Positions 6,219-26,869 of a stretch of 64,000 bases of DNA are shown one piece after another; positions within the stretch are counted from its first letter, which is position 1, and each line of letters opens with the position of its first letter. The position numbers and the translations under genes are program-made. The notes below the pieces were generated by a model, which saw only the letters and a program-made list of their open reading frames with translations, ran no database searches and was not told the origin of the DNA. The DNA is taken from positions 6,138,001-6,202,000 of the forward strand of contig NZ_CP042171.1 in the NCBI RefSeq assembly GCF_005938645.2. Direction: 5' to 3'. The DNA is from Pedobacter sp. KBS0701. Its GTDB lineage: Bacteria; Bacteroidota; Bacteroidia; Sphingobacteriales; Sphingobacteriaceae.

Positions 6219-9200
6219 ATGCGATACTTATGGGCGTGCCTTGTTTTTTTTGCCGCGTTTACGTTAAACGTTTTACCCGTTTTTTCTGCGGGCAAAAAAA
6301 ATCATAAAGGCCTAACAATTAATTATTTGATCCTTCAGGATACGACGAAAATTAAGATCGTATCAACTAAAGATTCTTTGCGAAAAGATAGTCTTGAACA
6401 GATCAGGAAAAAAACACTTTACAACAAATTGTCTGGTGGTGTACAAAAAGACACCAGAGATTTATCGCTCTTCCCTGCAATTTCATTACAGCAAAATTTA
6501 AAGGGCAATTTTGCTGGTCTGTATATTCAGGAACCCTCAGGCGAACCAGGTTCTATTCAGAACATGTTTATTAGGGGAGCTGCAATGCCGCTATTATCTA
6601 AAAAGGATTTGTACGATGCTCAACCTCTGGTGGTTCTAGATGGAATCCCGTTGGTACGGGAGCATCCTTTCGCTTTTGATATACAGCAATTCGATTTTAA
6701 CAGAATCGGTCCTGCAACTAATTTATTGACTGGTATTGATATGAATAATATTGCATCGGTAGAAGTGCTTAAAGATTTAGGTTCCACTTCTGTTTACGGC
6801 CCAAGAGGTGTTAACGGGGTAATTGTTTTAACCTCAAAAACAGCAGTTGGTAAATACCGCGCGATATCTTTCAATTCGTATATCGGTATGGTGCAAAAAC
6901 CATTTGTAAATACCATCAATGGTAAATATGAAAATGATTTCAGACAGCGCTTTTATGATGTATATACCACAAATGGCAGATATTCTGATGATGAAGAGTA
7001 TCCGGTATATTTAAGCGATTCGCTAAATAATGTGTACAGTGGAAAATCAGACTGGACAGATCTATACTATAAAAATGCACTGGTATATGGTATTAATTTC
7101 TCACTTGCCGGCGGTACGGACAGGGCGAACTTTAGGTTTGCATTGGGTAATACCAAAAGTGAAGGTGTAGCAGATCAAACGGGTATCGACCGTTATAGCG
7201 CCACTTTCAATATCAATATGAAGCCAACCAAATGGTTGTTGTTTTCGACTATGATTAATGCGAACCGCTTAAACCGCGACAGAAATAAAACCTTGCGCGA
7301 CCGGTTTGCACAACTTAATTATTTTCCTGATTTAAGTGCGCCTCTGCCTCCAAATAAAGATTTCTATGGTTCATACCTGCAAGAATATAAGAAAGGTTTT
7401 GATGATAACAAAACAAACTCTATTCAGGGTTATGCCAAATTAGAAGGAATTTTTGGTCAGTTTAAGGTGGTATCATCTTTTAATGCTGATTACAGTGAGG
7501 GGTATAGAGATGTTTTTTATGCCAGAACGCTTTTGCAGGGAAACAGTTATGCATCCAATTATTATGGCTTTAGCCAGAGATTAATGATGGATAACAAAGT
7601 AACTTACGATTTAAACCTGGATAAGGTTCACGATTTTCATTTTGCCTTAGGGCAATCCATGCAATGGGATATTTATAAATACAGTAACGCCTACGCTTAT
7701 AAAGGTGTTAATGATTATATTAAAATCAATTTGCTGGACTCTAAACCTAAAAATGACGATGGTAAGGATAACCCAGGTTATTTAACACCAGTTGCCTTTC
7801 CAAGAGAATTAACTTATCGGTTTTTAGATAAAACGGAAGATAACTTATTGTCTTTCTATGGAAAAGCTGATTACTCATTTAGCGATAAATACTTCTTATC
7901 AGCCGTATTACGTTTAGATGGCTCTTCAAACGCACAACCAACAAGCCGTTGGTTTTATTCGCCAACTATTTCTGCCGCCTGGAATATCAAAAATGAATTT
8001 TTGAAAGATAACAGCTTGGTTGATGATTTGGTATTGCGTGCAAGTGCTGGTAGAATGGGGCGTACCTTTAGTTACGATAATTATACGCAGGGTCCACAAT
8101 ATACAGCTTCAGTTGGTTATACTGGTAACTTAACAGTACCTGGATATAATGCATTCGGTGTTTTAACACGTCCTTATCAATTTGGTTGGGTAGGTTATGG
8201 TGTGCCTTGGTCGTACTCAGATCAACTTAATGTTGGTGCTGATGTGGCGATGTTGAAAAACCGTCTTCACGTTTCTGTTGACCTTTACAGCAAAACCGAC
8301 AAAAATCAATTAATTGGCATCCCTGCTTATGCCGAATATGGTTATAAACAATCTATCGAAAGCGGAATGTCTGTTAACAACACGGGTATCGATTTCACCG
8401 TGAGTGCTCAAATCATCGCAAAAAGTAAATTCTCATGGAATTCGGCCTTAAACTTTAATCACAATGCTAACGAATTGAAAGCATTGCCAAGAGGACTGGA
8501 TCAGTTGGTAGTAGGTAACAGATTTTTAAAAGTTGGCCAGCCCGTAGATCAATATTGGTTATTGGAGAATAATGGTATTTACACTGCAGATGCTGATGTG
8601 CCAGCGGTTAACGGACAAAAATTAAAATATAAGGGGATTGTTTTAAAGGCCGGCGATCCACGTTGGAAAGATCAAAATGGAGATAATACTATTGATGATA
8701 ACGATAAAGTATTAAAAGGTCATTCATTACCGACCCTTGCAGGTGGTTTCGATAACAATTTTAGATATGGCAATTGGAGTCTGGCTACAAGTTTCTACTT
8801 TAATTTAGGCAGAAAGCTAATCAACCAGGAGATGGCTAACCATTTTGATTTTGTTAACCGCGAAGGTAATACCGATATCAGTTCTGTTAAAGAAATTACC
8901 TTCTGGGAGAAACGTGGCGATTACTCAAAATATCCGCTTTACAATCCCTGGAGTACGGTAATCCCATACCGTGCAGATCAGGATCTCTTTTTAGAGAATG
9001 CTTCATTCTTAAAATTAAGACAGGTTTCATTGGGTTACGAACTGGGTAATCTGCTTAGTAAGAAGAACATCAAAATCAACAAATTCTTCGTATACGGTGC
9101 CGTGAGTAATATTTTCACCATCACGCCTTACACCGGTCAGGATCCCGAGCTAGTTAGCTACGATGGCGTGGATACAGGTTATGGCCAACCCATTCCGAGA

Positions 9201-9234: not shown

Positions 9235-10773
9235 ATGAAAACAAGAACTAACAAAACATCAGGTAAGATGAAAAATATATTATACATACTTCTGGTTTCT
9301 ATAATTGCCTTTTCGAGCTGTAATAAAGCTTTAGAAACCGATTCTACCAGGGTTGTAGGCGAAAAAAATGCCTGGAATACAGTAGAGGATGCCCGGTCGG
9401 GAATTTTGGGGGTTTATGCTTTAACACGGGCTGCCTTATCAGATAATAACGGTCACTGGATTTATGGTGATGTAAGAACCGGAGAGTTTTTAAGTCCGAA
9501 AAGACAGGATTTAAAGGCTGTAATCGGCAATAATTTAAACGCAGCATATCCTGTGATGGAGGCGTTATCTGATTGGACAAGGTTTTACGCCATTGTAAAC
9601 GGTGCTAATGTTTTCTTAGAAAATATTGGGCATGTAAAAGAAACAGATAAACGATACACAAGCAATAACATGACAGTGGATATTGCGCAAGCCAGGTTTT
9701 TAAGGGCTTTTGCCTATTTCTACATGGTGAGAATCTGGGGTGATGTACCATTTATTACCTCATCAGACGAAGGTAAATTTACGAATAAACCCCGCGAAAG
9801 CCAGGCCAGGATTTTAGCATGGGCCGAGCAGGAAATGCTAAAAGCAGCAGCTGATCTGCCATTTATTTATAGCGGTGGCGATGTGCAGCAGCCAACTGAT
9901 TATTATAATGAAACTTCAGGAAGATGGGGCGGTGCTTTGGCTACAAAAGTTACGGTATACGCGGTTCTAGCGCATTTGGCAGCCTGGAATGGCGATTATA
10001 CCAGCGTTTCTAAATATGCCAAATTTGTGGAAGATAATTACGGAAAAAGTGCCGGAGGTTTTACAGGAAGTGCTGACTTATCAAATTCCAACGGGTTTTT
10101 CTATAATAAAAACACCAGGCAGATGTTCGGTTTTAACTCCGATTATGGCCACGTGGATGGTTCATCTACCGGGCATATTGAAGAGTTAACTTTAGCTGAA
10201 CCGGTTATGACTAAGTCAGTTCCGGATATTTATCTTCCGAAAGATTCGATTCTAAAATATTTCAATATTGCAAAAGATCAAAGGTTTGCGGTTGATACTT
10301 TAGGGCAAGCAAAATACGATGGAAGATATTTTACCAACATAAACGGTAAGTATCCCATTTTCAGCAAAATCAAAGTAATTCAGGGTGGCGGAACAGATCC
10401 AAACTTCAGGTACTTTACCAGTGCTTTGGTTTTTACCCGCTTAGAAGATATCGTATTGTTAAGAGCAGAAGCGCTTTCAGTTTTGGGCGACCAACAGGGC
10501 GCTTTAAATGAACTGCTTTCTGTGATGGTGAGAAGATATGATGACGGATTTTCTGTAAATATAGATGACATCATTAAATTAATTTTCGAAGAGCGTCACC
10601 GCGAATTGTTGGGTGAAGGCTCAAGGTGGTATGATTTGATCCGTTACAACAAGATCAAACAGAACGACGCCAAATTTATGAACCTCATTAATTCTGGTGG
10701 CATTTACTGGCCAATATCAAGAAAGCTGATTGCTCAAAATAGTTTATTAACCCAAAATGCTTACTGGCGCTAA
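9235..10773 (+). CDS. SusD/RagB-family nutrient-binding lipoprotein (PUL 1, first)
   Basis: 512 residues. Surface lipoprotein that closes over the SusC barrel and binds the glycan. The lipobox AFSSC puts the acylated Cys at 29. A TPR-like SusD fold is indicated by VDIAQARFLRAFAYFYMVRI, WGDVPFI and, near the end, FEERHRELLGEGSRWYDLIR. The start at 9235 follows GGAGCTATAAG; a start at 9268 (MKNILYILL) is equally reasonable. A longer frame reaching into susC is read-through of the overlapping frame. Its TAA shares a base with the next start. Confidence 0.93.
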   Translation: MKTRTNKTSGKMKNILYILLVSIIAFSSCNKALETDSTRVVGEKNAWNTVEDARSGILGVYALTRAALSDNNGHWIYGDVRTGEFLSPKRQDLKAVIGNNLNAAYPVMEALSDWTRFYAIVNGANVFLENIGHVKETDKRYTSNNMTVDIAQARFLRAFAYFYMVRIWGDVPFITSSDEGKFTNKPRESQARILAWAEQEMLKAAADLPFIYSGGDVQQPTDYYNETSGRWGGALATKVTVYAVLAHLAAWNGDYTSVSKYAKFVEDNYGKSAGGFTGSADLSNSNGFFYNKNTRQMFGFNSDYGHVDGSSTGHIEELTLAEPVMTKSVPDIYLPKDSILKYFNIAKDQRFAVDTLGQAKYDGRYFTNINGKYPIFSKIKVIQGGGTDPNFRYFTSALVFTRLEDIVLLRAEALSVLGDQQGALNELLSVMVRRYDDGFSVNIDDIIKLIFEERHRELLGEGSRWYDLIRYNKIKQNDAKFMNLINSGGIYWPISRKLIAQNSLLTQNAYWR

Positions 10774-11894
10774 TGATAACGGATATGAAAAATTCAATTA
10801 AATACACAGGCGCACTGGCAATCTTATCATTGCTTACGCTCATCAATTCGGCCTGCAAAAAGAATGGAGGATTTTACGATGCACCAGACCAGAATGTAAC
10901 TTTTGCCGGCAATACTTACGATTATTTGAAAAGCAAACCAGGCGTTTTCGATTCGCTTATTGTAGCGATTGACAGGATGGGTTTGAAAAAAACATTAACC
11001 GATAGTAATGTTACGTTATTTGCAGTAAGCAATCCAAGCTTCCAACTGGCTTTACGTAACTTAAATACGTTAAGAAAACTATCTGATAAAGACCCACTTT
11101 TTTTGGCCAATATTGATGCTGTTCAGTTGGATACGATGACCTCGTACTATATTATCAGAGGTAAGAAAACAACCGATTCATTAAAACTTCAGGATGGTTT
11201 AGACTTGAAAAGTGTACATATTGGTTACCCGATGCATGCGAGTGTAACCAAAATATCGGCTTCTGGTCAGGTTGGTGCCGGACCTGAGGTTATTAATTTT
11301 GATAATACCAAAAAAAGCAAATTCGTTCGCAACTGGGCAACCAGTACAACATCATCAAATAACATTAAAACCAAAAACGGTGTCGTACATGTTATCAGTG
11401 CCGATCACGTATTTGGCTTCAATGAGTTCGTTACCCGGTTAACTTTTGTACCACCACCACCAAACCTTTATCTCGAAATTGGCGGTATATTTTCATCAAA
11501 CCGCGAAAATGGCGGCGGTATAACCAGTGGAGAAAATTCGAGAAAAGTAATTGATGGGGATGATCACACTAAATTCCTGGCCGATTTACAAGGCGAATTA
11601 TGGATGAGATTTGAACTTAAAACACCTGCGGTTTCGTCCGTATATACTTTAACATCTGCAAATGATGCCAACGAAAGAGATCCAAAAGCATGGACTTATG
11701 AAGGCTCGATGGATGGTTCAAACTGGGTAGAATTGGACAGAAGATCTAATTTCTTCTTTGAAGAAAGATACCAGCAAAAAGTATTTAGGTGTACAAATAC
11801 GGTTGCCTACAAATTTTACCGCATTGTGATTACCGAACTCAGAAACAGTGGAACCTTCCAGTTGGCTGAGTTTACCATAAACAAAACGAAATAA
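10773..11894 (+). CDS. Fasciclin (FAS1) plus discoidin-like lipoprotein
   Basis: 373 residues. A lipobox at INSAC (Cys 28) predicts a lipid anchor. Residues ~45-215 look like a FAS1 domain (GVFDSLIVAIDRMGLKKTL, VTLFAVSNPSFQ, TSYYIIRGKK, NGVVHVISADHVF). Residues ~235-373 resemble an F5/8 type C (discoidin) carbohydrate-binding domain (KVIDGDDHTKFLAD, VYTLTSANDANERDPKAW, YKFYRIVITELRN, FQLAEFTINK). The start ATG overlaps the susD stop by one base, and a start at 10785 is possible. It probably sits beside the first SusCD pair as an extra glycan-contact protein. The ligand is unknown. Confidence 0.8.
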   Translation: MITDMKNSIKYTGALAILSLLTLINSACKKNGGFYDAPDQNVTFAGNTYDYLKSKPGVFDSLIVAIDRMGLKKTLTDSNVTLFAVSNPSFQLALRNLNTLRKLSDKDPLFLANIDAVQLDTMTSYYIIRGKKTTDSLKLQDGLDLKSVHIGYPMHASVTKISASGQVGAGPEVINFDNTKKSKFVRNWATSTTSSNNIKTKNGVVHVISADHVFGFNEFVTRLTFVPPPPNLYLEIGGIFSSNRENGGGITSGENSRKVIDGDDHTKFLADLQGELWMRFELKTPAVSSVYTLTSANDANERDPKAWTYEGSMDGSNWVELDRRSNFFFEERYQQKVFRCTNTVAYKFYRIVITELRNSGTFQLAEFTINKTK

Positions 11895-11897
11895 GTG

Positions 11898-13022
11898 ATG
11901 CGAAATAGAAACACTAAAATAAATAGCCCGATGAAATCGATCATATATAAATATTTTGCGCTCCTTTTGCTTGCTGTAACCGTTTGCAGTAGCTGTAAAA
12001 AGATTTTCGATTTACCCGATGAGAAAGATTATATCAGTAACAATGTAAATTTTAGCAATAAAATTCTGGAGCCAATAATCGGAAGGACCAATCTTATCGG
12101 TGGCTTTAACAGCGATAACTCGACCAATCCCATCACTTTCGAAATTGTAAACGTTAGGTTTGGGGATGGAAAGCCGGTGAACGATCTTTTTACAACGGCG
12201 CCAACTTACGTATGGACGGCCCCTTATACGGGTTTGGAAAAAAGCCTGGCTGAAATTGAGGCAAAAAGAAAAATCGAAACACATCCGATATTCGAAATAC
12301 GTTCATCAGGTGAATTTATCTTGTGGCCATCAGCAACCAACCAGCTATTGAAACCCCGTCCGACTGATAGTACCAACTTTGCTCAGGATACACGCTTTTT
12401 TGATGTAAAGGTTAAAAACACCGGTGGCGAGCGCCTGATCAGAGATTTTCAGATCAGACCTTTCAGAGAACGCCCTTACGAACCATCGAATGATTTTAAT
12501 GCTTATACAGGTTTGCCTGCCCCTGATCCAAAATTTCCGTTAGACAAAAAACTGAGGGATTACATCCGTCCTTATCTGAATAATGTGATCGGTGCTACTT
12601 CTAATTTAAACTTAGTGAGCAACAATGATAAGAAGGATGCCATTGTTTACATCCGTCCATTAACATCAGGAGGTAATGGCCATTCACTACGTATTGTGGT
12701 TTTGGGTAAAGATTCTTTACCGATCGATCCTAAGTTCTTCAATGAAACAGTTTGGGATAAAATGATCCATGGTTTCAATATCCAGAAAACCGATCAATAT
12801 GTTCAGTATGATGTTGCTTATCCAATTCCATTGGTAGAAATCCCTACATCTTATGCTAAAGGCGGATCAAGGGCAAAAGCAGAGTTGAGTTACTCCAGGA
12901 TTGGTTTTGGAGGGGCACGTACAGTGGCCAGTTTCGGTGTCGATTTCGCTATTTATAAGGCTGGCGACTGGGAAATCGTCTTTTATTTCAAAAACGAGAA
13001 CCCAAAATTTGCTAACGAATAG
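11898..13022 (+). CDS. PUL-associated lipoprotein, DUF5007-like (tentative)
   Basis: 374 residues, lipoprotein signal with a VTVCSSC lipobox. There is no catalytic motif I recognise. The position directly after SusC-SusD-fasciclin and the beta-rich composition suggest the DUF5007-type accessory proteins of Bacteroidota PULs; this assignment is from memory of gene context and not firm. The in-frame start at 11931 (MKSIIYKYF) gives a more standard signal peptide. It most likely resides on the cell surface and takes part in glycan binding. Confidence 0.6.
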   Translation: MRNRNTKINSPMKSIIYKYFALLLLAVTVCSSCKKIFDLPDEKDYISNNVNFSNKILEPIIGRTNLIGGFNSDNSTNPITFEIVNVRFGDGKPVNDLFTTAPTYVWTAPYTGLEKSLAEIEAKRKIETHPIFEIRSSGEFILWPSATNQLLKPRPTDSTNFAQDTRFFDVKVKNTGGERLIRDFQIRPFRERPYEPSNDFNAYTGLPAPDPKFPLDKKLRDYIRPYLNNVIGATSNLNLVSNNDKKDAIVYIRPLTSGGNGHSLRIVVLGKDSLPIDPKFFNETVWDKMIHGFNIQKTDQYVQYDVAYPIPLVEIPTSYAKGGSRAKAELSYSRIGFGGARTVASFGVDFAIYKAGDWEIVFYFKNENPKFANE

Positions 13023-13043
13023 TTGATCAATAAAGCTAATATT

Positions 13044-16000
13044 ATGAAAAGAAATATACTTTTATATACATTACTTATTGTATGTATAATCTGTTGTACG
13101 AATGCCTATTCGCAAGAAAAAAATATTATTGTAAATGGCAGGGTTCTGGATAAAGATACCAAACAGGGGGTGCCAGGCGTATCTGTTGTTTTGCAAAGCA
13201 CAAATAAAGGCTTAACGCAAACAAACGGTGATGGAAAGTTTTCGGTTAACGTGCCTGTTGGAGGAACACTTTTATTTAAATTTTTAGGGTACAATACCTC
13301 ATCGGTTAAAATTACCAATCAAACCAATATCACAGTAACCATTAGCGAGGATCGTAAAGATCTGAATGATGTGATTATTGTAGCTTACCAAAACAGACCA
13401 AAAGAAACAACTGCCGGATCGGTAACGGTGCTTAGCGGTAAGGATGTATCCGATATCCCGGTATCAAATATTGAAACCCTTTTACAGGGTAAGGTGCCAG
13501 GGTTAAATATCCAGAACAATACCGGTGCCCCTGGTTTTAGGGGATCGGTACAGCTTCGTGGTTTATCAAGTTTAAGTATTTCGGGTAGTGGTAACGATTC
13601 ATTTTTACAACCTACATCGCCATTATACATTATCGATGGTGTGCCATTAGATGCAGATAAGGCAGCAGAGTTTGGTTTTCAAACGCAAGGCCCCGGGGTG
13701 AGTCCACTTTCGCTAATCCCTCAGGAGGATATCGAAAACATCCAGATCCTGAAAGATGCGCAGGCCACTTCCATGTATGGATCAAGAGGTGCTTATGGGG
13801 TAATCATCATCACCACAAAAAGAGGTAATTCTAAAGTGCCGCGTATTAAATATGTATCGAACTTTTTCGTTAATGCTCCGCCTAAATTACGCGAAACATT
13901 AGGCGGTAATTCAGAACGCCAATTAAAAATTCAGCAAATTATTTTAAACGCTGAGACCATTAATCAGATCAGGGGAATTAGCAATACACCTTTTCTTGCC
14001 GATAGTTTAAATGCGTATTATAATAACTCTACCGATTGGCAGGATGTATTTTATCAAACCACCTTTAACCAAAGTCATAACCTGGCTTTAGATGGCGGTG
14101 ACCAAAAATTTAATTACAAAGCTAATATGGGCTATTATGCGGAAAAAGGTGTAATTAAAAATACGGGTTATAACCGTTACAATTTAAACATGAACATGGA
14201 GTTTAAGCCGAATGATAAATTCAGGTTTTTCGGTTTCGTTAATGGCTCTGTAGGTAAACAGAATAAAGGTAACGGTGCAGGTTTGCTTCAATCGGGTGTA
14301 GCTGAAAACGGCCAGGCATCAACACTTTTGCCACCTCCGTCTTTTTATCAGGCATCTGGCGGGGTATTATCTGCTTTGCAAACGCTAAACGATAACAATT
14401 CCAGAAATTTAAGAGCAAATATAGATGCCCGTTACGAATTTATACCAGGTTTCGCAGCATCTTCTACCTTAAGTTATGATTATACCTCAGATACTGAAAC
14501 TACATTTACACCAGCCGCAGCCAACGGATCATTTGCCAAGCTTTATGATTATAATGGCCGAAATTTCCAGCTATACAATAGAAATGCAATTACCTACGCT
14601 AAAACATTAGGTGAAAAGCACAATTTCTTTATCAATACATTTAACGAAATTTATAAACAGGGCTCCCAATCATCAATAAGCCGGCAGGAAAGAATTCCAA
14701 ACGATCAGCTCCAGGGGCCAGTCGGCTTCGATGGTTATTACTCAAGAGGTGGCGGAGTTTTAAGTAGTTATAAAAATGCTACAATTGCCTCTTTCGCAGG
14801 ATCGCTATCTTACGATTATGATAAAAAATATGTTGCTGAATTCTCTTACCGTTTAGATGGTACCTCATCAAGTGGTTTGGAAAATCCATATTCTAAAAAC
14901 TCTTCAATAGGTTTAAGATGGAATTTCAACAAAGAAAACTGGTTAACAGATCAAAAATGGTTAGACTATGGTAGTTTAAGATTAACCTGGGGCCAGAATA
15001 TTGTGCCAACAGGTAATCTGCAAAGTATTTATGGTATTTATAACCTTAATGGAAATTACAACAATACGCAAACCATTGGTATCAATTACGATTTAATTCC
15101 AAATCCGGCTTTAAAGCCAACCACTACAAGTCAGTATAACCTTGGTTTTGACATTGGTTTCCTGAACAGATTCTCGATTGTTGTGGATAGTTATTTTAAA
15201 AAAGTAGATAATTTACTGTTCGATCGTATTTTATCAAATACTACAGGTTTTAATAAACTATCAAGTAACGATTTGGGTATAGCCAATTATGGTACCGAGA
15301 TCAGCTTAAATGTAAAAGCCATTACCAGCAAGGATTTCGATTTATCTTTCTCAATAAACGGTGCTTACAACCGCGATGTGCTGTTAAAATTGCCTGAAGA
15401 GTATAACGGGCAGTATATCCGCTTCGATGATTCCGGTTACCTGCAACATAATGTTTTCCGTGTAGGCAGAAATACCCTGTCAAACTATTTAAGAATTAAC
15501 CAGGGGGTTTACAAAACAGACGCAGATGTACCTGTAGATCCGGTTACCGGAAAAAGATACCAAACAAACAATACCTTCTTTTACGGGGGAGATCCGATCT
15601 TAAAAGATGTAAATGGCGATTATATTCTGGACAGCAGAGATTACGAAATTACCGGAAACTCACAGCCATTGTTAACAGGTGGTTTATCATTCACCATGAG
15701 GTATAAAAGATGGGGACTAAATATGTATGCCAGTTACACTGCCGACAGAACAATCTTAAATAATGCCCTTGCCGATCGTATTGCCATCATGAGAGATCCT
15801 TATGCATTAAATGCAGTAGTACCTTTAGGTGATTTGAATATCTGGCAGAAACCAGGCGATGTGGCTAAATATCCATATCCTTATGATTTTAGCCGTTACG
15901 GAAATATCCAACCATTAAGAGCTGACCAAACCTTATGGCAGGAAAGTGGTACGTATTTGAAAATTAACAACTTAACTCTTTCCTATATGTTCGATAAGAA

Positions 16001-16190: not shown

Positions 16191-16201
16191 AAATATTGAT
16201 T

Positions 16202-17722: not shown

Positions 17723-17738
17723 TTATAATAAAAAAGAT

Positions 17739-18479
17739 ATGAAAAAGCTAATTTTTGCTTGTGCTGCTTTACTGCTGATATTAAATGCTTGTAAGCGTGA
17801 TGAATATTATCGTGATGGAGGCCTGGCCAATCCTGACTTTAATGGTAACATGCTTCAATATTTACAGGCTAAAAAAGTACCTTTTGATACCATAGCCAAA
17901 ATTGTAAAACTGGCGGGTTTAGAAAGTACCTTTTCAAATGAGGACTTTACTTTTTTTGCGCCTGATGATGAGGTAATTAAAAAAACAATCGGGACAATTA
18001 GAACTGATGGATTAAATAACCTACTTTTTTACGCAGGAAAAGATACCGTTAAAACGCTGGATCAGATTAGTCCGGTAATCTGGAGGAGATATCTGCAACG
18101 TTATATGTTTAAGGGTGTGAATAGGTTAAAGGATTATCAGCAAATCGATTTTGATGTTAAGAGTGTTTATCCGGGCGGTTTGTATTATTCTCTTAGTGGT
18201 AATATCTCAAATATTGGAGTAACCTATGCTACCGCGAACAATATCAAATATATCGGGTACCGCCAATTAAACTTAACTTATATCCCCGATGCTTCAAAAC
18301 CTAATGATAATTGGTACATCAACAAGGTGGCATCATCTGATATAAAACCTACCAATGGCGTTGTACACACTTTGGCCTATAATGACATAAGAGGCGGCGC
18401 TTATTTTGGCTTTAACGAGAGTGATTTTTTTAGTGATGTATATTTTAGCGGTTTAGCTCCTTCTGATCCCTCAAAATAA
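17739..18479 (+). CDS. Fasciclin-domain lipoprotein (second PUL 1 module)
   Basis: 246 residues. Lipobox ILNAC (Cys 18). A single FAS1-type domain: VPFDTIAKIVKLAGLESTF, EDFTFFAPDDEVI, RRYLQRYMFKGV and NGVVHTLAYND. It is the positional counterpart of the fasciclin protein at 10773 but lacks its discoidin half. The ATG at 17739 gives a clean lipoprotein signal; longer starts run back into the susD reading frame. FAS1 domains usually mediate adhesion or protein contact; in PULs their exact role is unproven. Confidence 0.8.
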   Translation: MKKLIFACAALLLILNACKRDEYYRDGGLANPDFNGNMLQYLQAKKVPFDTIAKIVKLAGLESTFSNEDFTFFAPDDEVIKKTIGTIRTDGLNNLLFYAGKDTVKTLDQISPVIWRRYLQRYMFKGVNRLKDYQQIDFDVKSVYPGGLYYSLSGNISNIGVTYATANNIKYIGYRQLNLTYIPDASKPNDNWYINKVASSDIKPTNGVVHTLAYNDIRGGAYFGFNESDFFSDVYFSGLAPSDPSK

Positions 18480-18509: not shown

Positions 18510-20132
18510 ATGATGAAAAAAATTAAATTTATATTCACAATAATCACTTTGATTGCTTTCAGCTTTCAAGGATGTAAAAAGGCAGATGATGTAATCCCTG
18601 ACCCTTATGCTGATGCTAAATCGCCATTAGGCGTGGCCATTTCGCAAACTGATGTCCCAGTTCCTGCTGTTGGGATTGTAGGTACATCTGTAGTCATCAA
18701 AGCTTCGGGCTTTGATAAATATAAAGATCGATTAACCTTTATGTTTAACGGCGAAAAGGCCGAGGTAATTAGCGTTACGGCCACAGAAATTACCGTTAAA
18801 GTTCCGGAAAGCGGAAGTACGGGCGTAACATCAATCGCTATTGGCGATCAGTTATTTATTGGGCCAACTTTTACCGTAACCGGGCTCATGCAGATTGATC
18901 CTACTTTTAAAGCTATAGCAGGTACCAACGGTTATGTAAGTCAGGTATACGAAATGCTTGATGGAAGGAATATCGTAGTTGGTAATTTTACCAATTTTGA
19001 TAATAAAGGAGGTGTGGTTCCCATTAACCGGATCGCAAGAACATCATTAGATGGAGAATACGATCGTACTTTCCGTACAGGGCGGGGAGCTAACGGGACT
19101 TTAGCCAGGATTGTAGAAATTGGTGGGCGTTTTATTGTAGCAGGTGGTTTTACCGGATTTAACCAGCGTACAGAAAATATCAGCAACATTACCAGTTTGT
19201 TCACCAGCGGAGCAATAGACACCATAAAAATTCAAACCAAAAGAAAGCCAACAGTCACTGATACCGTTACGCAGAAATGGTTTCCGAGGTTTAACGGCGG
19301 TACAAATGGTTTTATTAACCGTGTATACGCACACCAGGGAAAAATTTTAGCAACCGGCGATTTCAGGTATTATGTAAAAAGAACTTACGATAAGTTTAAT
19401 TACGATTTATCGAGGGATACGGTCATATTGGACAGTACAGAAATCCGCCAGATTTTGCGCTTTAATTTAGATGGTAGTCTTGATAAAACATTCCGTTTCA
19501 ACACCGCTACCAATAAAGGAAAAGAAAGTGCAAACGGACCTGTGGATACTTACATGCATACTGAGGCAGAGAAGCTGGAAAAACTGGTTGTGTTTGGTAA
19601 TTTTACCACTTTCGATGGTCAGCAAGCTAACCGCATTGTGAGGTTAAATGCTGATGGAAGTATCGATCCTACTTTTACATCAGGTACAGGCGCCGATAAT
19701 GCCATATATTCTTGTACTTATAATGTAACAACAAAAAAATATGTGATTACCGGAAGTTTTACCCGTTATAATGGTAAAGCAGTAGTAGGTGTTGCGGTTT
19801 TAAACGATAATGGAACTTTAGATGAATCATTCGCATCGCTCTCCTTCGAAGGTGGGCAAGCTAATTTTGCCAAACAGCTTAATAATGGGTTAATTGTAGT
19901 AAGCGGGTATTTTATTAAATACAATGGCATCACCAGAAATGGGTTTATGGTTTTAACACCAACAGGAACATTGGCAAAAGGATACAATTCTACAGGTCCT
20001 TTTAATGGTAGCCTATCCGATGTGATCGAAACGAAATCGGCAGATGGTAAAAAAGCACTATTGCTAATAGGTAGCTTTAGTCGTTTTGATAATTTACCAT
20101 TATACAACATTATTAGGGTAACTATCGAATAA
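18510..20132 (+). CDS. DUF5008-like lipoprotein with IPT/TIG domain and delta-60 repeats
   Basis: 540 residues. Lipobox SFQGC (Cys 22). An IPT/TIG immunoglobulin-like domain covers about residues 45-125 (GTSVVIKASGFDKYKDRLTF, ITVKVPESGSTG). The rest contains repeats of the delta-60 type: GRNIVVGNFTNF, GRFIVAGGFTGF, KLVVFGNFTTF with NADGSIDPTFTSGTGADNA, KYVITGSFTRYNGK with NDNGTLDESF. These form a beta-propeller-like surface protein. It follows the second fasciclin protein as the DUF5007-like protein follows the first. A binding role on the surface is inferred. Confidence 0.65.
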   Translation: MMKKIKFIFTIITLIAFSFQGCKKADDVIPDPYADAKSPLGVAISQTDVPVPAVGIVGTSVVIKASGFDKYKDRLTFMFNGEKAEVISVTATEITVKVPESGSTGVTSIAIGDQLFIGPTFTVTGLMQIDPTFKAIAGTNGYVSQVYEMLDGRNIVVGNFTNFDNKGGVVPINRIARTSLDGEYDRTFRTGRGANGTLARIVEIGGRFIVAGGFTGFNQRTENISNITSLFTSGAIDTIKIQTKRKPTVTDTVTQKWFPRFNGGTNGFINRVYAHQGKILATGDFRYYVKRTYDKFNYDLSRDTVILDSTEIRQILRFNLDGSLDKTFRFNTATNKGKESANGPVDTYMHTEAEKLEKLVVFGNFTTFDGQQANRIVRLNADGSIDPTFTSGTGADNAIYSCTYNVTTKKYVITGSFTRYNGKAVVGVAVLNDNGTLDESFASLSFEGGQANFAKQLNNGLIVVSGYFIKYNGITRNGFMVLTPTGTLAKGYNSTGPFNGSLSDVIETKSADGKKALLLIGSFSRFDNLPLYNIIRVTIE

Positions 20133-20162: not shown

Positions 20163-21866
20163 ATGAGTATGATGAAAAAATATAAATTATTGATTGGCTT
20201 AATCGCAACAATAATTACCACGGCCATATTTTCTTGTAATAAAGAATTCGAAAGAACTATTGGAGATAAGAATGCCAGTGATACCACAACTGTTAAATAC
20301 GGAAACCGTAAGGTACTTTATTTAGTTGTCGATGGAGCCAGGGGGCAATCGGTTTTAGATGCAAATACACCAAATATTGATGCTATTTTACCGCACGCTA
20401 TCTACACATGGGTAGGGTTAAGTGATCCTGAAGCAACTGCAAGTGCAACCAATTGGGCAAACATGTTAACCGGGGTTAAAAAAGAGAAGCATAAGGTTAC
20501 CACCGATGCATTAACGAATAACAATCTGCAGAATTACCCAATTATCTTCAACAGGATTAAAGAGGCAAGTGCAAAATCGAAAATCGTTACCTATACCTCA
20601 TCAGCGGTTTTTAAATCGTTAAATACAGGAGCTGACGTGACTAGCCTGTTGGCAGATGATGATGCTGTTAAAGCCGGATTGATCAGCAATTTAACAAGTG
20701 ATACTGCAACGGTTATTGTAGGCCATTTTACGGGGGTTAATGCGGCAGGTGCTGCATCAGGATATGATGTTTCTTTTCCAGCTTATAAAGCAGCTATCGA
20801 AAAATTCGATACTTCCGTAGGTGAAATCCTCGCGGCACTAAAAAAACGTCCTGATTATAACAATGAGCAATGGCTGGTGGTTATTGCATCAAGTGCAGGC
20901 GGGCAATATACCTTACCCTCAAATGCCGATGACCAAACTATTTTTAGCCAGCCAAAAGTAAATTCGTTTGTAATTTATTATGCACCAACCTACAACAAAC
21001 GAATTTTAACAAAGCCATTTACGGGTAACAGGTATTTAGGCAAAACAATCCGTTTTAAAGGGGAAGATGTGAGGGCACAGGTTGATGCTGCTGACGCAAA
21101 CGTTTACAATATAGATGACACTACAAAAGTGACCATTGAACTTAAGGTTAAAAAGAACGAAGACAAATTCTTCTGGCCAAGTGTTTTAGGTAAACGTAAT
21201 GAGTGGTCTGGTGGCCATCCGAGTGTAGGCTGGGTTATTTATTTAGAAGAAGACTATTGGTATTTTGAGTGGCGGGGCACCAAAGATGGAGATTACCACC
21301 AATGTAGGGGTGGGAGTTTTGCCAAGGGGAAATGGACAAATTTAACGGCAAAAATAGAGGTACGTAATGGACAAAGGTTTGTTCGTACCTATACCAATGG
21401 TAGCTTTAATAATGAGCTCGAAATTACAGGTTCAGGTTCATTGGCAAATTCTAATCCTTTAAAACTGGGATTTTTAAACGGAAACGGACACGGAGTACCA
21501 GATGTATATGTAAGTGATATCCGCTTTTTTAAATTTTCTGTTCCGGACGGAATGATCGGCAACTATGCCTGTCAAACTTCAATAGACCAAAGTCATCCAT
21601 ACTTTAATTTTCTGGTAGGGTATTGGCCCGCAACAGATGGTAATGGTGATATCATGGCAGATTTAAGTTCTCAGGCACATGATTTTAAATTTCAGGGAAA
21701 CTATGCCTGGGAGAGTTTTAACGATTTAATCTGCCCTCCGGCACCAGAAACACTGGCCATATTTGTTCCTCAAACATCAGATATACCTGCACAGATTATA
21801 AATTGGTTAAAGATTGCCAATAAACAAATATGGGGGCTTGATGGCCGGGTTTGGTTAGATCAATAA
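20163..21866 (+). CDS. Lipoprotein with degenerate alkaline-phosphatase fold and LamG-like domain (DUF4983-like)
   Basis: 567 residues, lipobox AIFSC (Cys 25). Residues ~50-300 follow the alkaline phosphatase/phosphodiesterase superfamily order: LYLVVDGARGQ (Asp 57), ATNWANMLTG (~95-104), HFTGVNAAG (188-196) and VVIASSAGG (239-247). Active members normally carry a D-H pair in the last block and D...H in the preceding one. Here these are Ser-Ala and Asn/Ala, so metal binding looks lost. Residues ~310-480 are a LamG/concanavalin-like sandwich (KVTIELKVKKNEDKFFWP and NPLKLGFLNGNGHG-like). Likely a surface binding protein and not an enzyme. An active variant with shifted ligands is possible. Confidence 0.65.
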   Translation: MSMMKKYKLLIGLIATIITTAIFSCNKEFERTIGDKNASDTTTVKYGNRKVLYLVVDGARGQSVLDANTPNIDAILPHAIYTWVGLSDPEATASATNWANMLTGVKKEKHKVTTDALTNNNLQNYPIIFNRIKEASAKSKIVTYTSSAVFKSLNTGADVTSLLADDDAVKAGLISNLTSDTATVIVGHFTGVNAAGAASGYDVSFPAYKAAIEKFDTSVGEILAALKKRPDYNNEQWLVVIASSAGGQYTLPSNADDQTIFSQPKVNSFVIYYAPTYNKRILTKPFTGNRYLGKTIRFKGEDVRAQVDAADANVYNIDDTTKVTIELKVKKNEDKFFWPSVLGKRNEWSGGHPSVGWVIYLEEDYWYFEWRGTKDGDYHQCRGGSFAKGKWTNLTAKIEVRNGQRFVRTYTNGSFNNELEITGSGSLANSNPLKLGFLNGNGHGVPDVYVSDIRFFKFSVPDGMIGNYACQTSIDQSHPYFNFLVGYWPATDGNGDIMADLSSQAHDFKFQGNYAWESFNDLICPPAPETLAIFVPQTSDIPAQIINWLKIANKQIWGLDGRVWLDQ

Positions 21867-21897: not shown

Positions 21898-23337
21898 ATG
21901 AAGAAAATTATATATATCGCATTGATAAGTTTAGCCATAATTGGTGTTTATTCTTGTCGCAAATCACAAATAGATGATTTAAAATTGCCAGATCCTAATA
22001 CCAGAAGTGTAACAGGGGAAGGTATCGTTGCCGGAAACGTTTCCATAGATAACGAATACATTAAAGTTCCTTTTAAAATTTCTTTAACGGGCGTTGCAGA
22101 AGAGGCCTTTCAGGTAGGTTTAACTTTAAATAACGATACTGTTACGCAGTTAATTAATAATGGAACCATTACAAATGCGATCCTAATGCCGTCTGCAGGG
22201 GTAGAATATCCTAATGTGATCAACGTGGCTTACGGAACCGATAAGAGCGAAGGCGTTGCTATTGTTCGCCGGTCAGTATTGGAGCGCAATTATGGTAAAA
22301 AAGTGGTTTTCGCCCTAAAGCTTTCGGCTCCCGGCAAAGGAAATAAGATTGCCGCTGGCCAATCTACCATCATGGTTATTATCAATACTGCCGATCTGTT
22401 AAAACCCACCGATCTGCACTATTTAACTTTAAATGGCGGTGGTACCTATAATGTAGTATATCAGGGCAATTACATTGTAGGCCCTGCCGGGGTAACGATT
22501 CCACTGATTGTAAGTTTAGAAAACCAACCATCAACAGCTTTCAATATTAAAATCAAGGAAAACATAGATACCATTGCTACTTTAGTTGGCAGGGGAACTT
22601 TGCCCGCAGATGCAATCCATTTGGCTGCTAAAGATTATAGCGTTGATACTTTGGTTCGGTTTGCCACGGGAGCTTCGAGTGCGATCGTCAGACTTCAGAT
22701 CCCATGGCCGGTTTTCGATGCCAACATTGTTGCAAATAAGAAATTTGCATTCGCCTTCAGTATTAACGAGGCAAGCAATCATGTAATTCACCCAACTAAC
22801 AGCAAATTAATAGTGATTGTAGATCCTAATGTAAATTTGGATAATAACTCTTACATCACCGGAAACGGTACTGGTTTAACAGCAAAATATTATACCAATA
22901 CCCAATTAGATCCGGATGATGGACGCGCGCCATTTAAAACCAGAATTGATGAGCAAATTAACTTTAGTGGGGATAGTTGGCCAGATAGTGTGTACGTTAA
23001 TACAAAAAGTAATTCTTTGAGCCGAGATAACTTTGCGACCAGGTGGACAGGCGAGTTTTTGGCGCCAGTTCGTGGTACCTATACTTTTTATCAAACCCGC
23101 TGGGATGATGGTGCCAGACTATATGTTAATGGCGTAGCGTTAGTAGACGATTACACCACCCAATGGGATAAAGATACACGTAAGGGCACCATATTTTTAG
23201 AACGTGGTAAAAGATATAAAATAGAAGCACATCACCGCGAAAATGTAGGTGGGCAGCAGGCTTATCTTGAAATTGAAGTGCCGAATATTTTATCCAAAAG
23301 GGTAATACCAAAATCTCAATTATTTCCAACACCTTAA
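21898..23337 (+). CDS. DUF1735 (BT_3987-like) plus PA14 domain lipoprotein
   Basis: 479 residues. Lipobox GVYSC (Cys 20). Two immunoglobulin-like DUF1735-type segments can be traced (about 35-170 and 175-310), each with a pattern of internal strands ending in a KLSAPGKGNKI / FSINEASNHVI-like segment. The C-terminal ~150 residues are a PA14 domain (GLTAKYYTNTQLD, FATRWTGEFLAPVRGTYTFY, DDGARLYVNGVALVDD, HHRENVGGQQAYLEIE). PA14 domains commonly bind carbohydrate. It sits in the accessory part of PUL 1 and probably displays glycan-binding surfaces outside the cell. Confidence 0.75.
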   Translation: MKKIIYIALISLAIIGVYSCRKSQIDDLKLPDPNTRSVTGEGIVAGNVSIDNEYIKVPFKISLTGVAEEAFQVGLTLNNDTVTQLINNGTITNAILMPSAGVEYPNVINVAYGTDKSEGVAIVRRSVLERNYGKKVVFALKLSAPGKGNKIAAGQSTIMVIINTADLLKPTDLHYLTLNGGGTYNVVYQGNYIVGPAGVTIPLIVSLENQPSTAFNIKIKENIDTIATLVGRGTLPADAIHLAAKDYSVDTLVRFATGASSAIVRLQIPWPVFDANIVANKKFAFAFSINEASNHVIHPTNSKLIVIVDPNVNLDNNSYITGNGTGLTAKYYTNTQLDPDDGRAPFKTRIDEQINFSGDSWPDSVYVNTKSNSLSRDNFATRWTGEFLAPVRGTYTFYQTRWDDGARLYVNGVALVDDYTTQWDKDTRKGTIFLERGKRYKIEAHHRENVGGQQAYLEIEVPNILSKRVIPKSQLFPTP

Positions 23338-23350: not shown

Positions 23351-24184
23351 ATGAAAAATAACGTAAAAAAATTACTCAGTATTCTATCTCTTTTAATACT
23401 TATTGTAATGACAACAGTAAAGTGTAAGAAAGATGCAGAAGAGGTTGTTCCGGTGGTGGACGAACCTAAACCAACAGCAGGTTTTTCGTACGTAAGGCCG
23501 GATACTGTAAAATTCTTAGAGTACCAGTTTACGGGTAGCTCGACAAATTACAAAACTTTGTTGTGGCAATTCGGAGATGATAGTACCTCTGTTTTGGTTA
23601 ATCCAAAACATACCTATCGTTTCCCCGGCAAATATAAAGTAACCTTAACCACCAGAAACAGCCAGGGCTATTCGGCCGCAAAAGAAGTGCTTTTAAATAT
23701 TGTAGATCCAAATTTCGATCCAACAAAAATTGGAGAGAATTATATGCAGACGGTTGGTGGCATATTTTCGGTAAATTTAGAAGCCGGTGCCGGACCTAAT
23801 TCTGATGAGGGATCGAAAAAACTGGTTGATGGCGACATCACGACCAAATTTTTGCAGGCAGGTTTTGATGGTACGCAAAGATGTACTTTCGAACTTGCAA
23901 CCCCACAGGTTGTTGGTGCTTATACTTTAACTTCGGGAAACGATGCTGAAGATAGAGACCCTAGATATTGGATTTTACAGGGATCAATAGATGGTATTCA
24001 GTATACCGATTTACATACCGTAACCACTTGCCCGTGGGCAAACTCTAATGAAAGACGCGTTACCAAAAGGTATTATTTCGACAACTTTGTTGCCTATAAA
24101 TTCTATCGTCTTTATATTAAAGCAAACAGAGGAAGCAGGGTTTTCCAATTATCCGAATGGACCATTAACAAAAAACAGCCTTAG
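23351..24184 (+). CDS. PKD plus discoidin (F5/8 type C) lipoprotein
   Basis: 277 residues. Hydrophobic signal followed by TTVKC (Cys 25). A PKD domain spans about residues 40-120 (FTGSSTNYKTLLWQFGDDST, NPKHTYRFPGKYKVTLTTRN). A discoidin-like domain covers 130-277 (KLVDGDITTKFL, AYTLTSGNDAEDRDPRYW, YKFYRLYIKAN, FQLSEWTINKK). The last domain is visibly related to the C-terminal domain of the fasciclin protein at 10773, so the operon carries two versions of one binding module. Last gene before a 207-base gap that has its own operator. Confidence 0.8.
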   Translation: MKNNVKKLLSILSLLILIVMTTVKCKKDAEEVVPVVDEPKPTAGFSYVRPDTVKFLEYQFTGSSTNYKTLLWQFGDDSTSVLVNPKHTYRFPGKYKVTLTTRNSQGYSAAKEVLLNIVDPNFDPTKIGENYMQTVGGIFSVNLEAGAGPNSDEGSKKLVDGDITTKFLQAGFDGTQRCTFELATPQVVGAYTLTSGNDAEDRDPRYWILQGSIDGIQYTDLHTVTTCPWANSNERRVTKRYYFDNFVAYKFYRLYIKANRGSRVFQLSEWTINKKQP

Positions 24185-24320
24185 TTTATATAGGTTTTAT
24201 GCACAATTTGAAAGATACATGGAGCTTAAAAACTTCATGTATTTTTTTGAGGGCTCATTTTAAATGTCATTTAGACAATTAAAAAAATGTCTTCACTTGC
24301 AAATTAAATTATATTTTATA

Positions 24321-24344
24321 CTTTAGTAAAACGTTTAACTAAAG
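24321..24344. promoter_or_regulatory. Candidate operator upstream of the PUL 1 glycosidase
   Basis: CTTTAGTAAAAC followed by GTTTAACTAAAG: a 24-bp palindrome with one mismatched pair, centred on CG. Just upstream is a promoter-like CTTGC ... TATACTTTA. The 207-base gap 24185-24391 is otherwise AT-rich. The site shares the AAACGTTT core with those upstream of the first susC, suggesting common control of both transcription units. Confidence 0.55.
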
Positions 24345-24391
24345 TTAAATCTAACCAAAATATACAATCGGATTTCAACACACACATACAA

Positions 24392-26869
24392 ATGATGAAC
24401 AAAACCAACACTTTTAAATTTATAGGCGTACTCGGCTGCATGTTTGCAGGCAGTTTGCTGAAGGCCCAGGAGCGGAAAGCCCCGGCTTATCCCTTAATTA
24501 CACACAATACCTATTTCAGTATCTGGTCTACCACGGATAAATTAAACGAATCTTCTACCCAACACTGGACGGGAGCTGATCACTCTCTTTTAGGAATGAT
24601 TAATGTTGACGGTGGTATTTATCGGTTTTTAGGTAAAGAAACTACCACTTATAGAACGGTTGTACCTGCTTCCGACGAAAAAGCTTACGAAGTTAAATAT
24701 ACTGAAAGTGAGCCACAGGGCGATTGGAAGGCGGAAAATTATAGCGCCACCAACTGGCAAACAGGTGCTACGCCAATTGGTGATGATGAAAAAAATGTAA
24801 AAACCGTTTGGAAATCGCATGATATATGGGTGAGGAGAGCCTTTAATGTCGCTAACCCGGCATCAATAAACGAACTGTTTTTAAAGATTAATCATGATGA
24901 TAATATTGAGGTTTACCTGAATGGAAAGAAAATCTACACGAAAGAAGGCTGGACCAATAACTTCCAATATATTGCCTTAAGCAATAGCGATAAAAATGCT
25001 TTAAAGGCAGGGTCTAACGTAATCTCGATCCATTTAATTAACACTGCTGGCGGCCGCTTTCTCGATTTTGGTTTAGTAGAAAAGCTAAAAGACAAAGCAG
25101 AAAAAGTACAGCTGGCTAAACAAAAAAGTGTTGATATCAATGCCACGCAAACCATTTATAACTTTACCTGTGGTAAGGTCGATTTAAAATTAACTTTTAC
25201 CTCTCCCTTGTTAATGAACGATTTGGGTTTGTTTGCACGTCCGGTTTCTTACGTTTCCTATCAGGTAAAAGCAAATGATGGTAAAACGCACCAGGTAAAA
25301 GTGTATTTAAGTGCTTCTTCTAACATTGCAGTTTACCGTCCTACACAAGAGGTTGCCGCAACCAAGTACGCAACAGCTAAATTATCAGTATTGAAAACAG
25401 GAACGGTAGAGCAGCCAGTTCTTCAAAAAGCAAGTGATGATATGCGAATTGACTGGGGTTATTTTTACGTGGCTGCGCCAAAAACCGGCAATGCCATCCA
25501 GTTTGTAACGGCCGAAAAAGATGCTGCCGATGCTTTTAGAAAAGGCAATTCCGCTTCAACCGTTAAACAAGGCAAAATGCTTGCATTGAATACTGTTATC
25601 CCCTTCGGAACAGTGGGTAAAGCTGCGGTAGAAAAATATGTTGAATTAGGCTATGACGAAATTTATAGTGTTCAATATTTTAACAAAAATTTAAGACCAT
25701 GGTGGAATACCTCAGGTAAAGAAACCATTGAATCACAGTTAACGGCTGCGGCTGATGAATACAAAACGGTGATCCGGAAATGCGAGACTTTTAACAAAAA
25801 TTTATATGCCGATGCCTTAAAATCGGGTGGTAAAGAATATGCTGATTTATGCGTTTTAGGTTACCGCCAGAGTATTGCAGCACATACTCTGGCAAAAAGT
25901 CCGCAAGGAGAGATTTTATGGTTATCTAAAGAAAATAACAGTGGTGGTTTTATTAATACCGTCGATGTAACTTACCCTTCGGCACCATTATACCTGATTT
26001 ATAATCCAGAGTTATTGCAAGGCATGTTGAACGGTATTTTCTATTTCAGCGAAAGTGGAAAATATCCTCATCCCTGGGCAGCCCACGATCTGGGTACTTA
26101 CCCCTTAGCCAACGGACAAACCTATGGCGAGCCAATGCCGGTTGAAGAATCGGGCAACATGATTATTTTAACTGCGGCGATTGCCAAAGCACAGGGAAAT
26201 GCCAATTACGCTAAAGCACACTGGAAAACCTTAACCACCTGGGTTGATTATTTAACCAAAGAGGGCTTAGATCCAAAAACACAGTTATGTACCGATGATT
26301 TTGCTGGTCACCTTGCCCGTAATGCCAACTTATCGGTAAAAGCTATTGTGGGTATAGCCTGTTATGCCCAGATGGCACAAACATTAGGTTATAATGAAGT
26401 AGCTAAAAAATATAGGGATATTGCTGAAAGTATGGTGCCAAAATGGATAGAAATGGCCGATGCAGGCGATCACTATGCTTTAACTTTTGATAACAAAAAT
26501 ACCTGGAGCCAGAAGTATAACCTGGTTTGGGATAAGGTTTTAAATTTAAATTTGTTCCCTCAAAAAATATATGATACCGAAACCAAATATTACCTGACGA
26601 AACAAAATAAATACGGTATCCCATTAGATAGTAGAAAGGCCTACACTAAAAACGACTGGATCTTGTGGACCGCTACTTTTGCACCAACACAAAAAGAATT
26701 CGAAGCTTTGATTCATCCTGTTTACAAGCATGCTATCGAAACTGACTCTAGAGTGCCTTTGAATGATTTTTATGATTCAAATACTGGTATTCGCGATAAC
26801 TTTAAAGCCCGCAGTGTAGTGGGTGGCTTTTACATGAAAATGCTTGCCGATAAATTAAATAGTAAATAA
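24392..26869 (+). CDS. DUF4965/DUF1793 glutaminase-A-like protein, predicted carbohydrate-active enzyme
   Basis: 825 residues with a signal peptide ending near KAQERKAP. The order is: DUF4964-like N-terminus (PAYPLITHNTYFSIW, QHWTGADHSLLGMI), an inserted jelly-roll segment at about 85-235 (HDIWVRRAFNV, INHDDNIEVYLNGKKIY), a DUF5127-like beta domain, then an alpha/alpha toroid (DUF4965/DUF1793, about 460-825). The toroid carries WAAHDLGTYPLANGQTYGE, MPVEESGNM and CTDDFAGHLARNANLSVKAI, acidic residues that could be catalytic. Named after fungal glutaminase A, but bacterial members occur in PULs and are thought to act on glycans. It is the only plausible hydrolase of PUL 1 in the window. Ends at a strong terminator. 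Confidence 0.8.
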   Translation: MMNKTNTFKFIGVLGCMFAGSLLKAQERKAPAYPLITHNTYFSIWSTTDKLNESSTQHWTGADHSLLGMINVDGGIYRFLGKETTTYRTVVPASDEKAYEVKYTESEPQGDWKAENYSATNWQTGATPIGDDEKNVKTVWKSHDIWVRRAFNVANPASINELFLKINHDDNIEVYLNGKKIYTKEGWTNNFQYIALSNSDKNALKAGSNVISIHLINTAGGRFLDFGLVEKLKDKAEKVQLAKQKSVDINATQTIYNFTCGKVDLKLTFTSPLLMNDLGLFARPVSYVSYQVKANDGKTHQVKVYLSASSNIAVYRPTQEVAATKYATAKLSVLKTGTVEQPVLQKASDDMRIDWGYFYVAAPKTGNAIQFVTAEKDAADAFRKGNSASTVKQGKMLALNTVIPFGTVGKAAVEKYVELGYDEIYSVQYFNKNLRPWWNTSGKETIESQLTAAADEYKTVIRKCETFNKNLYADALKSGGKEYADLCVLGYRQSIAAHTLAKSPQGEILWLSKENNSGGFINTVDVTYPSAPLYLIYNPELLQGMLNGIFYFSESGKYPHPWAAHDLGTYPLANGQTYGEPMPVEESGNMIILTAAIAKAQGNANYAKAHWKTLTTWVDYLTKEGLDPKTQLCTDDFAGHLARNANLSVKAIVGIACYAQMAQTLGYNEVAKKYRDIAESMVPKWIEMADAGDHYALTFDNKNTWSQKYNLVWDKVLNLNLFPQKIYDTETKYYLTKQNKYGIPLDSRKAYTKNDWILWTATFAPTQKEFEALIHPVYKHAIETDSRVPLNDFYDSNTGIRDNFKARSVVGGFYMKMLADKLNSK

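Follow-up and report, generated by a model that had tools for sequence, protein, structure and literature searches.

What does a PUL import when it encodes two sets of uptake proteins and a single candidate enzyme, and where is its substrate cut? The question is raised by positions 6219-26869 of a 64,000-nucleotide stretch of DNA from the soil bacterium Pedobacter sp. KBS0701, the whole of which is called the window here and which belongs to a complete genome of 6.33 Mb. A sequence-only reading had seen at this place a glycan capture system with one hydrolase, and had proposed that the substrate is very simple, or is processed by enzymes encoded elsewhere, or is a conjugate such as a glycoprotein. 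We argue that the locus is an old two-module cassette importing protein-linked glycans or glycopeptides, mannosylated in this organism, under the control of a LacI regulon and with the cutting done mostly outside the PUL; taken as a whole, we give this reading an even chance of being right.

Gene content of the locus

The interval 6219-26869 is one PUL. It is filled by twelve + strand ORFs (ORF list of the window), the first eleven of which are spaced by -29 to +31 bp, with an approximate start used for SusD1, and the last of which is preceded by 207 bp:

6219-9233, + strand, SusC1 (TIGR04056), N-terminal extension absent, no recognisable TonB box
9235-10773, + strand, SusD1 lipoprotein (start given by the ORF caller 9163; start by eye 9235 or 9268)
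10773-11894, + strand, FAS1 and F5/8 type C lipoprotein (Pfam)
11895-13022, + strand, DUF5007 lipoprotein (confident model, no convincing PDB match)
13023-16190, + strand, SusC2, N-terminal extension and TonB box present
16196-17722, + strand, SusD2 lipoprotein (SusD_RagB)
17694-18479, + strand, second FAS1 protein (lipobox by eye only; signal begins at a downstream M, MKKLIFA)
18510-20132, + strand, DUF5008/TIG and DUF5122 propeller lipoprotein (Pfam)
20163-21866, + strand, ENPP-like fold with LamG and DUF4983, probable pseudoenzyme (lipobox by eye only)
21898-23337, + strand, PA14 lipoprotein
23351-24184, + strand, PKD and F5/8 type C lipoprotein (Pfam)
24392-26869, + strand, GtaA-type six-hairpin protein, sole candidate enzyme (DUF4964, DUF5127, GtaA_6_Hairpin)

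Domain calls (Pfam/NCBIfam) bore out the arrangement described earlier, namely two SusCD-FAS1 modules on one strand followed by the listed lipoproteins and a DUF4965-type protein, which we took to be the ORF with DUF4964, DUF5127 and GtaA_6_Hairpin. The SusC and SusD genes adjoin in two pairs, SusD_RagB and Fasciclin were each found twice (the first Fasciclin together with F5/8 type C), and the ENPP-like protein carries Phosphodiest, Laminin_G_3 and DUF4983. The accessory lipoproteins had been called large, which does not hold for the first of them (DUF5007, 375 aa), and in the protein described as DUF1735/PA14 we found PA14, while DUF1735 was not detected even at E 10.

Nine of the products look like lipoproteins, SusD lids counted, seven through a loose lipobox pattern and two by eye only. 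The same pattern also matched VLGC at residue 16 of GtaA; we judged this match spurious, a plain secretion signal being likelier by eye. As predicted from domains, GtaA is the only candidate for a glycan-degrading enzyme in the PUL. An M60-like peptidase is absent from the window operon, and one M60 gene is present elsewhere in the same genome. Flavo-1 RNA matches above the gathering score were noticed at 27150-27218, just 3' of GtaA, and at 50242-50359 and 50432-50504 of the window.

The ENPP-like protein and structure searches

In type I phosphodiesterase/ENPP enzymes the DHG motif has a metal role. The ENPP-like protein keeps the first Asp motif, and S-[SN]-x-GG replaces the expected DHG in 40 of 40 core proteins; the Asp of DHG is gone in all 40 and its His is kept in two (L047 and L061). 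An active phosphatase as second enzyme was rejected on this loss of the Asp. Among comparison proteins from the same genome, DHG is present in L095 and L096 and EYG in L094; for the fourth match, L097, the wrong ORF was taken. The first ENPP-like ORF in 60 further loci has S[SN]xGG in 47 and an intact motif in none, the fetched regions of the remaining 13 beginning near or inside the ENPP-like gene, and among second ENPP-like copies S[SN]xGG was found in 38 of 44 and one looked intact. The Phosphodiest match is 36.5 bits (Pfam). The AlphaFold model (pLDDT 88.8) has ENPP6 as its best PDB match (E 4.4e-10), with ENPP6 and other phosphodiesterases ranking first and carbohydrate-binding LamG-type structures lower. 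Judged by its motifs, the window protein is probably a pseudoenzyme, which leaves GtaA as the sole candidate enzyme, in agreement with the one hydrolase proposed earlier.

The DUF5007 model (pLDDT 87.6) gave no meaningful match in Foldseek (best E 9e-4, TM 0.17). When solved structures were searched by sequence, neither the ENPP-like protein nor GtaA, DUF5007 or the second FAS1 protein had any match, and the matches of the propeller protein were short, weak and confined to designed trefoils. Elsewhere in this genome (L140, 6015-19880) we observed a run of FAS1 proteins beside a large outer-membrane-like protein; a phosphodiesterase gene close by has its DHG intact.

Conservation of the first nine genes

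Of 198 genomes drawn across the class, two have DUF5007 (PF16398), the window's own and one of the same family; within that family, 128 of 301 genomes carry it, in 11 of 25 genera. We chose 39 loci with strong DUF5007 matches, weak matches being left out except L073, fetched about 20 kb around each and assigned roles by best phmmer score. The nine genes from SusC1 to the ENPP-like protein stand in the same order on one strand in all 39 chosen loci, although the lowest identities to the window cassette are 27-42% by gene. Similarly, the full order was present in 77 of 80 named loci, which are the best 80 of 232 relatives and overlap partly in species with the 39; of the three exceptions, L252 stops at the contig end, and L248 and L254 each lost one gene to the ORF caller, which also missed genes in L051, L060 and L062. 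Among these best 80 of 232, the closest named DUF5007 match was that of Pedobacter alluvionis, with 98% identity. The cassette occurs in Pedobacter, Mucilaginibacter, Parapedobacter, Olivibacter, Sphingobacterium, Desertivirga and Anseongella. This conservation of order is far beyond chance; the first nine genes are an old, fixed cassette, and the proposal of one integrated capture and import system is upheld by the fixed order in relatives. We also noticed the cassette in L235 (Flavitalea sp.) and L237 (a Chitinophagaceae MAG) at 66% DUF5007 identity, like Mucilaginibacter, through either transfer or a mislabelled assembly.

The two SusC proteins

Both SusC proteins lie above the curated TIGR04056 cut-off of 368.25 bits, SusC1 with 457.6 and SusC2 with 677.3. 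In a tree of 80 rows (24 SusC1, 24 SusC2 and 32 from the own genome), made with FastTree because of the data size, SusC1 and SusC2 each formed one clade with support 100. These two clades and one own-genome SusC form a three-way fork with unresolved branching order, and we infer that SusC1 and SusC2 arose by duplication. The sequence-only reading had allowed for two unrelated modules; gene order compared across genomes, together with the SusC clades, ruled this out, as it did a chance grouping. A single SusC-SusD-FAS1-DUF5007-like module is also present in the own genome (L073, 12314-18764), and its SusC groups with SusC1/SusC2.

The N-terminal extension (PF13715) is present in the window SusC2 and had no match in the window SusC1, in which TIGR04056 aligns only from position 102; the N-termini of 24 SusC1 proteins were also read by eye. 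A TonB-box motif before the plug was found in 2 of 40 SusC1, 37 of 40 SusC2 and 25 of 34 other own-genome rows, and an alternative pattern gave 1 of 40, 36 of 40 and 25 of 32, respectively. SusC1 may have a divergent TonB box, since in control rows the pattern overlooks some boxes that the eye picks out, and since two SusC1 ORFs (L044 and L061) begin too late to be judged. SusC1 seems to have lost its TonB-contacting N-terminus across the family. The two SusCD pairs may then be one asymmetric machine, in which SusC1, as the passive or receptor half, would function only next to SusC2, driven by TonB; one pair would grip a bulky protein-linked glycan and the other would pump it. We put this forward tentatively and consider it doubtful. 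Another tandem double SusC locus of the own genome (L142, 4940-14323) has a second SusC without N-terminal extension, which by eye keeps a TonB-box-like stretch.

Variable genes downstream of the core

What follows the core varies. In 60 further loci, which we chose from the family scan so that the shares reflect that choice, the cargo was M60-family in 46, the PA14 type of the window in 12 and neither in two (phmmer). In M60-type loci the M60-family protein lies directly 3' of the core and is followed by the second ENPP-like protein. Its HExxH...E zinc motif is intact in 53 of 55 M60-family proteins from both locus sets, L064 and L065 being the exceptions. The option of a conjugate such as a glycoprotein gains evidence from these M60-family proteins in 46 of the 60 loci. 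Pfam applied to selected cargo of various loci gave GH35, GH84, PL8, GH29, GH88, GH92, GH78, GH43, GH95, GH31, GH2, melibiase and one subtilase; the subtilase-family gene, in L150 (13270-14838), stands beside M60 cargo as a second peptidase in one cassette.

Among loci of the PA14 type, GtaA lies downstream in 11 of the first set, in L077 and in L195. Desertivirga (L251) has GtaA upstream of the cassette and two GH92 genes downstream, the first assigned through Pfam (full ORF) and the other through phmmer. Nine of the 12 new PA14-type loci matched none of 19 cargo queries and had no GtaA in the downstream stretch covered (phmmer only; L197 is short).

A palindromic site at the PUL

The region before SusC1 and the gap before GtaA share an operator-like palindrome:

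5829-5840, + strand, palindromic operator-like site TAAAACGTTTAA, upstream of SusC1, kept in Pedobacter relatives
6048-6059, + strand, palindromic operator-like site TAAAACGTTTTA, upstream of SusC1
6068-6075, + strand, promoter-like TATATTTG, matching TAnnTTTG, conserved in the alignment
6264-6275, + strand, third palindromic site, within the SusC1 signal-peptide codons
24327-24338, + strand, further copy of the palindromic site, in the gap (207 bp) that precedes GtaA

With up to one mismatch, the window has four copies of TAAAACGTTTTA where 1.0 would be expected, and 1 of 100 shuffles reaches four; three of these sites are at SusC1 and one is in the gap before GtaA. TAnnTTTG, which we take to be the Bacteroidetes -7 consensus, lies 3' of the central site, an arrangement kept in Pedobacter. 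The site at 6048 with the adjoining ATATTTGA has one mismatch-free match in the genome and one more with two mismatches. We also observed that the stretch of about 520 bp upstream of SusC1 (5697-6218) holds no listed gene, its conservation in Pedobacter being centred on the palindrome and the promoter-like element.

In relatives, 44 of 78 named loci have AAACGTTT in the 450 bp upstream of SusC1, where 2.7 would be expected, and in one set it precedes GtaA in all 11 loci (0.24 expected), the related rows in such counts not being independent; it also stands before GtaA in L195. Against our reading, it is missing before SusC1 in 34 of the 78 named loci, just upstream of GtaA in L251 and L077, and just upstream of 5 of 5 GH92 ORFs beside the cassette in other genera (one set). 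In a second set of GH92 ORFs beside the cassette it is missing in all six having upstream sequence, five more starting where the locus ends. The loci L228-L241 and L259, 15 in all and mostly from Mucilaginibacter, have no AAACGTTT before SusC1 in 14 cases. Further along the window, at 30373-40205, a LacI gene is followed by SusC, SusE and a cyclomaltodextrinase/HAD set (a starch-type PUL). That this LacI gene at 30373 acts through the same site on the adjoining starch PUL was rejected, there being no AAACGTTT between 28363 and 39632.

Candidate partners across the genome

The genome has 26 matches to the pattern TWAAACGTTTWA and 11 to its reversed form. The window PUL (4), a second locus (5), GH92 genes (4) and another SusC, which one site precedes, account for fourteen of the 26; the other twelve are about the control number. 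Encoded at the second locus (4.22-4.24 Mb) are two GH92 proteins, a GtaA paralogue, a LacI-family regulator at about 4238517-4239521, a ROK-family protein, SusCD and two BSP peptidases, with a site 62 bp before one BSP peptidase gene. One of its five sites falls inside the ROK ORF, which counts against our reading.

PF07971 has ten matches in the genome, two of them within one ORF, and therefore we counted nine GH92 genes. For four of the nine, a site falls no more than 100 bp from the ORF start, in one case 45 bp inside the called start; the computed P value for this is 1.4e-10, or 5.5e-7 if sites are 8-fold enriched there, with sites treated as independent. Two more belong only to gene runs that lie 0.8 and 2.7 kb away from a site, and the remaining three have no site within 3 kb. 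These points, the site inside the called start among them, speak against our reading, as does the fact that the link is drawn from one genome. Both GtaA genes of the genome have a site upstream. Two further genomes, G389 and G273, also have sites at matching distances from the cassette DUF5007, and away from the cassette a cluster of 7 sites in the first (C13, 47628-60102) and one of 4 in the second (C11, 271402-289946) suggest a second locus of like kind.

The control sites suggest that the PUL supplies mannose- or protein-linked glycans to enzymes whose genes lie in other parts of the genome. Of the options proposed earlier, processing elsewhere gains evidence from the site common to GH92 and GtaA genes, and the glycoprotein option gains further evidence from the BSP peptidases beside GH92 at the second locus. 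In our reading, the window PUL provides uptake within a dispersed regulon of LacI type that deals with mannosylated glycoconjugates.

Comparison with known systems

No description of a dual SusCD-fasciclin cassette was found among the literature matches listed, and a full-text name search found literature naming DUF5007, with DUF5008 and DUF4983 not named there. The earlier suggestion of a wholly undescribed system nevertheless finds no support, for BT0269-75 and BT0277-79 of B. theta PUL5 (BT0262-BT0290) have matching product names. According to the portions of these sources available, BT0268 is a SusC (PMC5061871); the names given for BT0269-75 are SusD, hypothetical, DUF5007, SusD and DUF5124, and those for BT0277-79 are carbohydrate-binding protein, alkaline phosphatase family protein and hypothetical (PMC10434189, among genes lower under iron depletion). 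Five names are given for seven BT0269-75 tags, so the B. theta gene order is deduced, and the cassette resembles BT0268-BT0279 by product names only, within an arabinogalactan PUL. In the accessible text, arabinogalactan is the primary substrate of BT0262-90 (PMC3243724, PMC6874557; also PMC5061871), whereas PMC13088901 gives the substrate of PUL5 as unknown. Its regulator is the HTCS BT0267 (PMC6874557, in the part available), in contrast to the LacI-type control proposed here, and BT0277 falls outside the three M60 proteins reported for B. theta in the excerpt of PMC13176161.

The mucin O-glycoprotein PUL BT4240-50 of B. theta has a surface M60-like glycopeptidase and SusCD, with proposed import of glycopeptides (PMC11992087, available text). 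It resembles the M60-bearing sister loci, whereas the branch of the window has no M60; moreover, the available text of PMC11992087 shows one SusCD pair, and the word fasciclin is absent from it. The levan importer Bt1762-63 likewise uses a SusC/SusD pair for glycan import, and the TonB box of Bt1763 is needed for growth on levan (PMC7782687, available part). That system, however, is a single pair whose SusC has both NTE and TonB box, unlike the window SusC1, which has no NTE and no recognisable box. The last gene of the window shares Pfam domains with GtaA/DUF4964-DUF5127-DUF4965 proteins, which the accessible part of PMC9668830 suggests to be glycoside hydrolases; a tested GtaA-domain homologue, outside the branch of the window, had no glutaminase activity (same source). 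The Urechidicola symbiont (PMC10199937), with a PUL of two SusCD pairs and a separate FAS1 transcript, was set aside, as the genes listed in the available text differ from the cassette.

Substrate and mechanism

In the reading we prefer, two specialised SusCD-FAS1 modules would capture and import glycans still attached to protein, or glycopeptides. At the cell surface the polymer would be bound by the lipoproteins, two of which are SusD lids, and handed over to the two SusC pumps. A LacI-family repressor binding TWAAACGTTTWA would switch on the uptake operon, GtaA and the dispersed GH92 set, along with BSP peptidases at the second locus. As the site is common to the uptake operon, GtaA and the dispersed GH92 genes, cutting would be mostly by genes outside the PUL. 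M60-bearing relatives would cut the glycoprotein at the surface, as proposed for BT4240-50; the branch of the window would have lost or never had M60, keeping its binding proteins and depending on hydrolases elsewhere. Because this branch has no M60, the case for protein linkage is borrowed from outside the PUL, namely from its sister loci and from the BSP peptidases of the second locus, which counts against our reading. The GH92 family as a whole acts on alpha-mannosides. It includes alpha-1,2-mannosidases (PMC10167667, part available). We infer that the substrate in this Pedobacter is alpha-mannosylated material, e.g., fungal mannoprotein or N-glycoprotein.

The weak beta-galactosidase activity of a GtaA-domain homologue (PMC9668830, accessible part) and the arabinogalactan response of the B. 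theta look-alike point to galactans, against our reading. The cassette could accordingly import arabinogalactan-protein fragments or other beta-galactans, with GtaA as a galactosidase and GH92 co-regulation as part of a broader fungal/plant glycoprotein response. Besides that activity and the place of BT0268 and the similarly named BT0269-79 in the BT0262-90 PUL, GH35 in some relatives and GH2 and melibiase in others agree with such a substrate. We nevertheless think it unlikely, as the scanned subset of proteins from the window operon and the second locus includes no galactan enzyme, the enzyme genes at the shared site are GH92 and GtaA, and the B. theta match depends on product names. The tension with arabinogalactan may mean that the substrate differs by lineage, or that the shared theme is glycoprotein rather than one sugar.

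The few enzymes would also be explained if the PUL were an ordinary importer of soluble oligosaccharides made by other organisms, and the nine of 12 new PA14-type loci without cargo-query or GtaA matches fit such scavenging. Nine lipoproteins, SusD lids counted, and two transporters are much for a simple sugar, however; the sister loci keep an active-looking M60 protein, and the site links the window operon with hydrolase genes, so that we hold scavenging to be distinctly improbable. FAS1 and discoidin domains are common in adhesion proteins, and with PKD and PA14 they might indicate a system mainly for adhesion or surface display in which transport is secondary. That two SusC barrels stay together with two SusD lids in all 39 chosen loci argues for transport, and we regard this explanation as very improbable indeed.

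Prediction of PUL substrates leans on neighbouring CAZymes, whereas here the importer is conserved and the enzymes vary by lineage or lie elsewhere; in this genome a simple palindrome recovers probable partners of the PUL. DUF5007, DUF5008 and DUF4983 gain a shared functional setting, and a SusC lineage that has neither NTE nor recognisable TonB box is useful for asking what energises SusCD pairs. If the asymmetric arrangement of the two pairs is true, the cassette would import through two SusC proteins that divide the labour between them, and would serve a regulon of scattered hydrolases.
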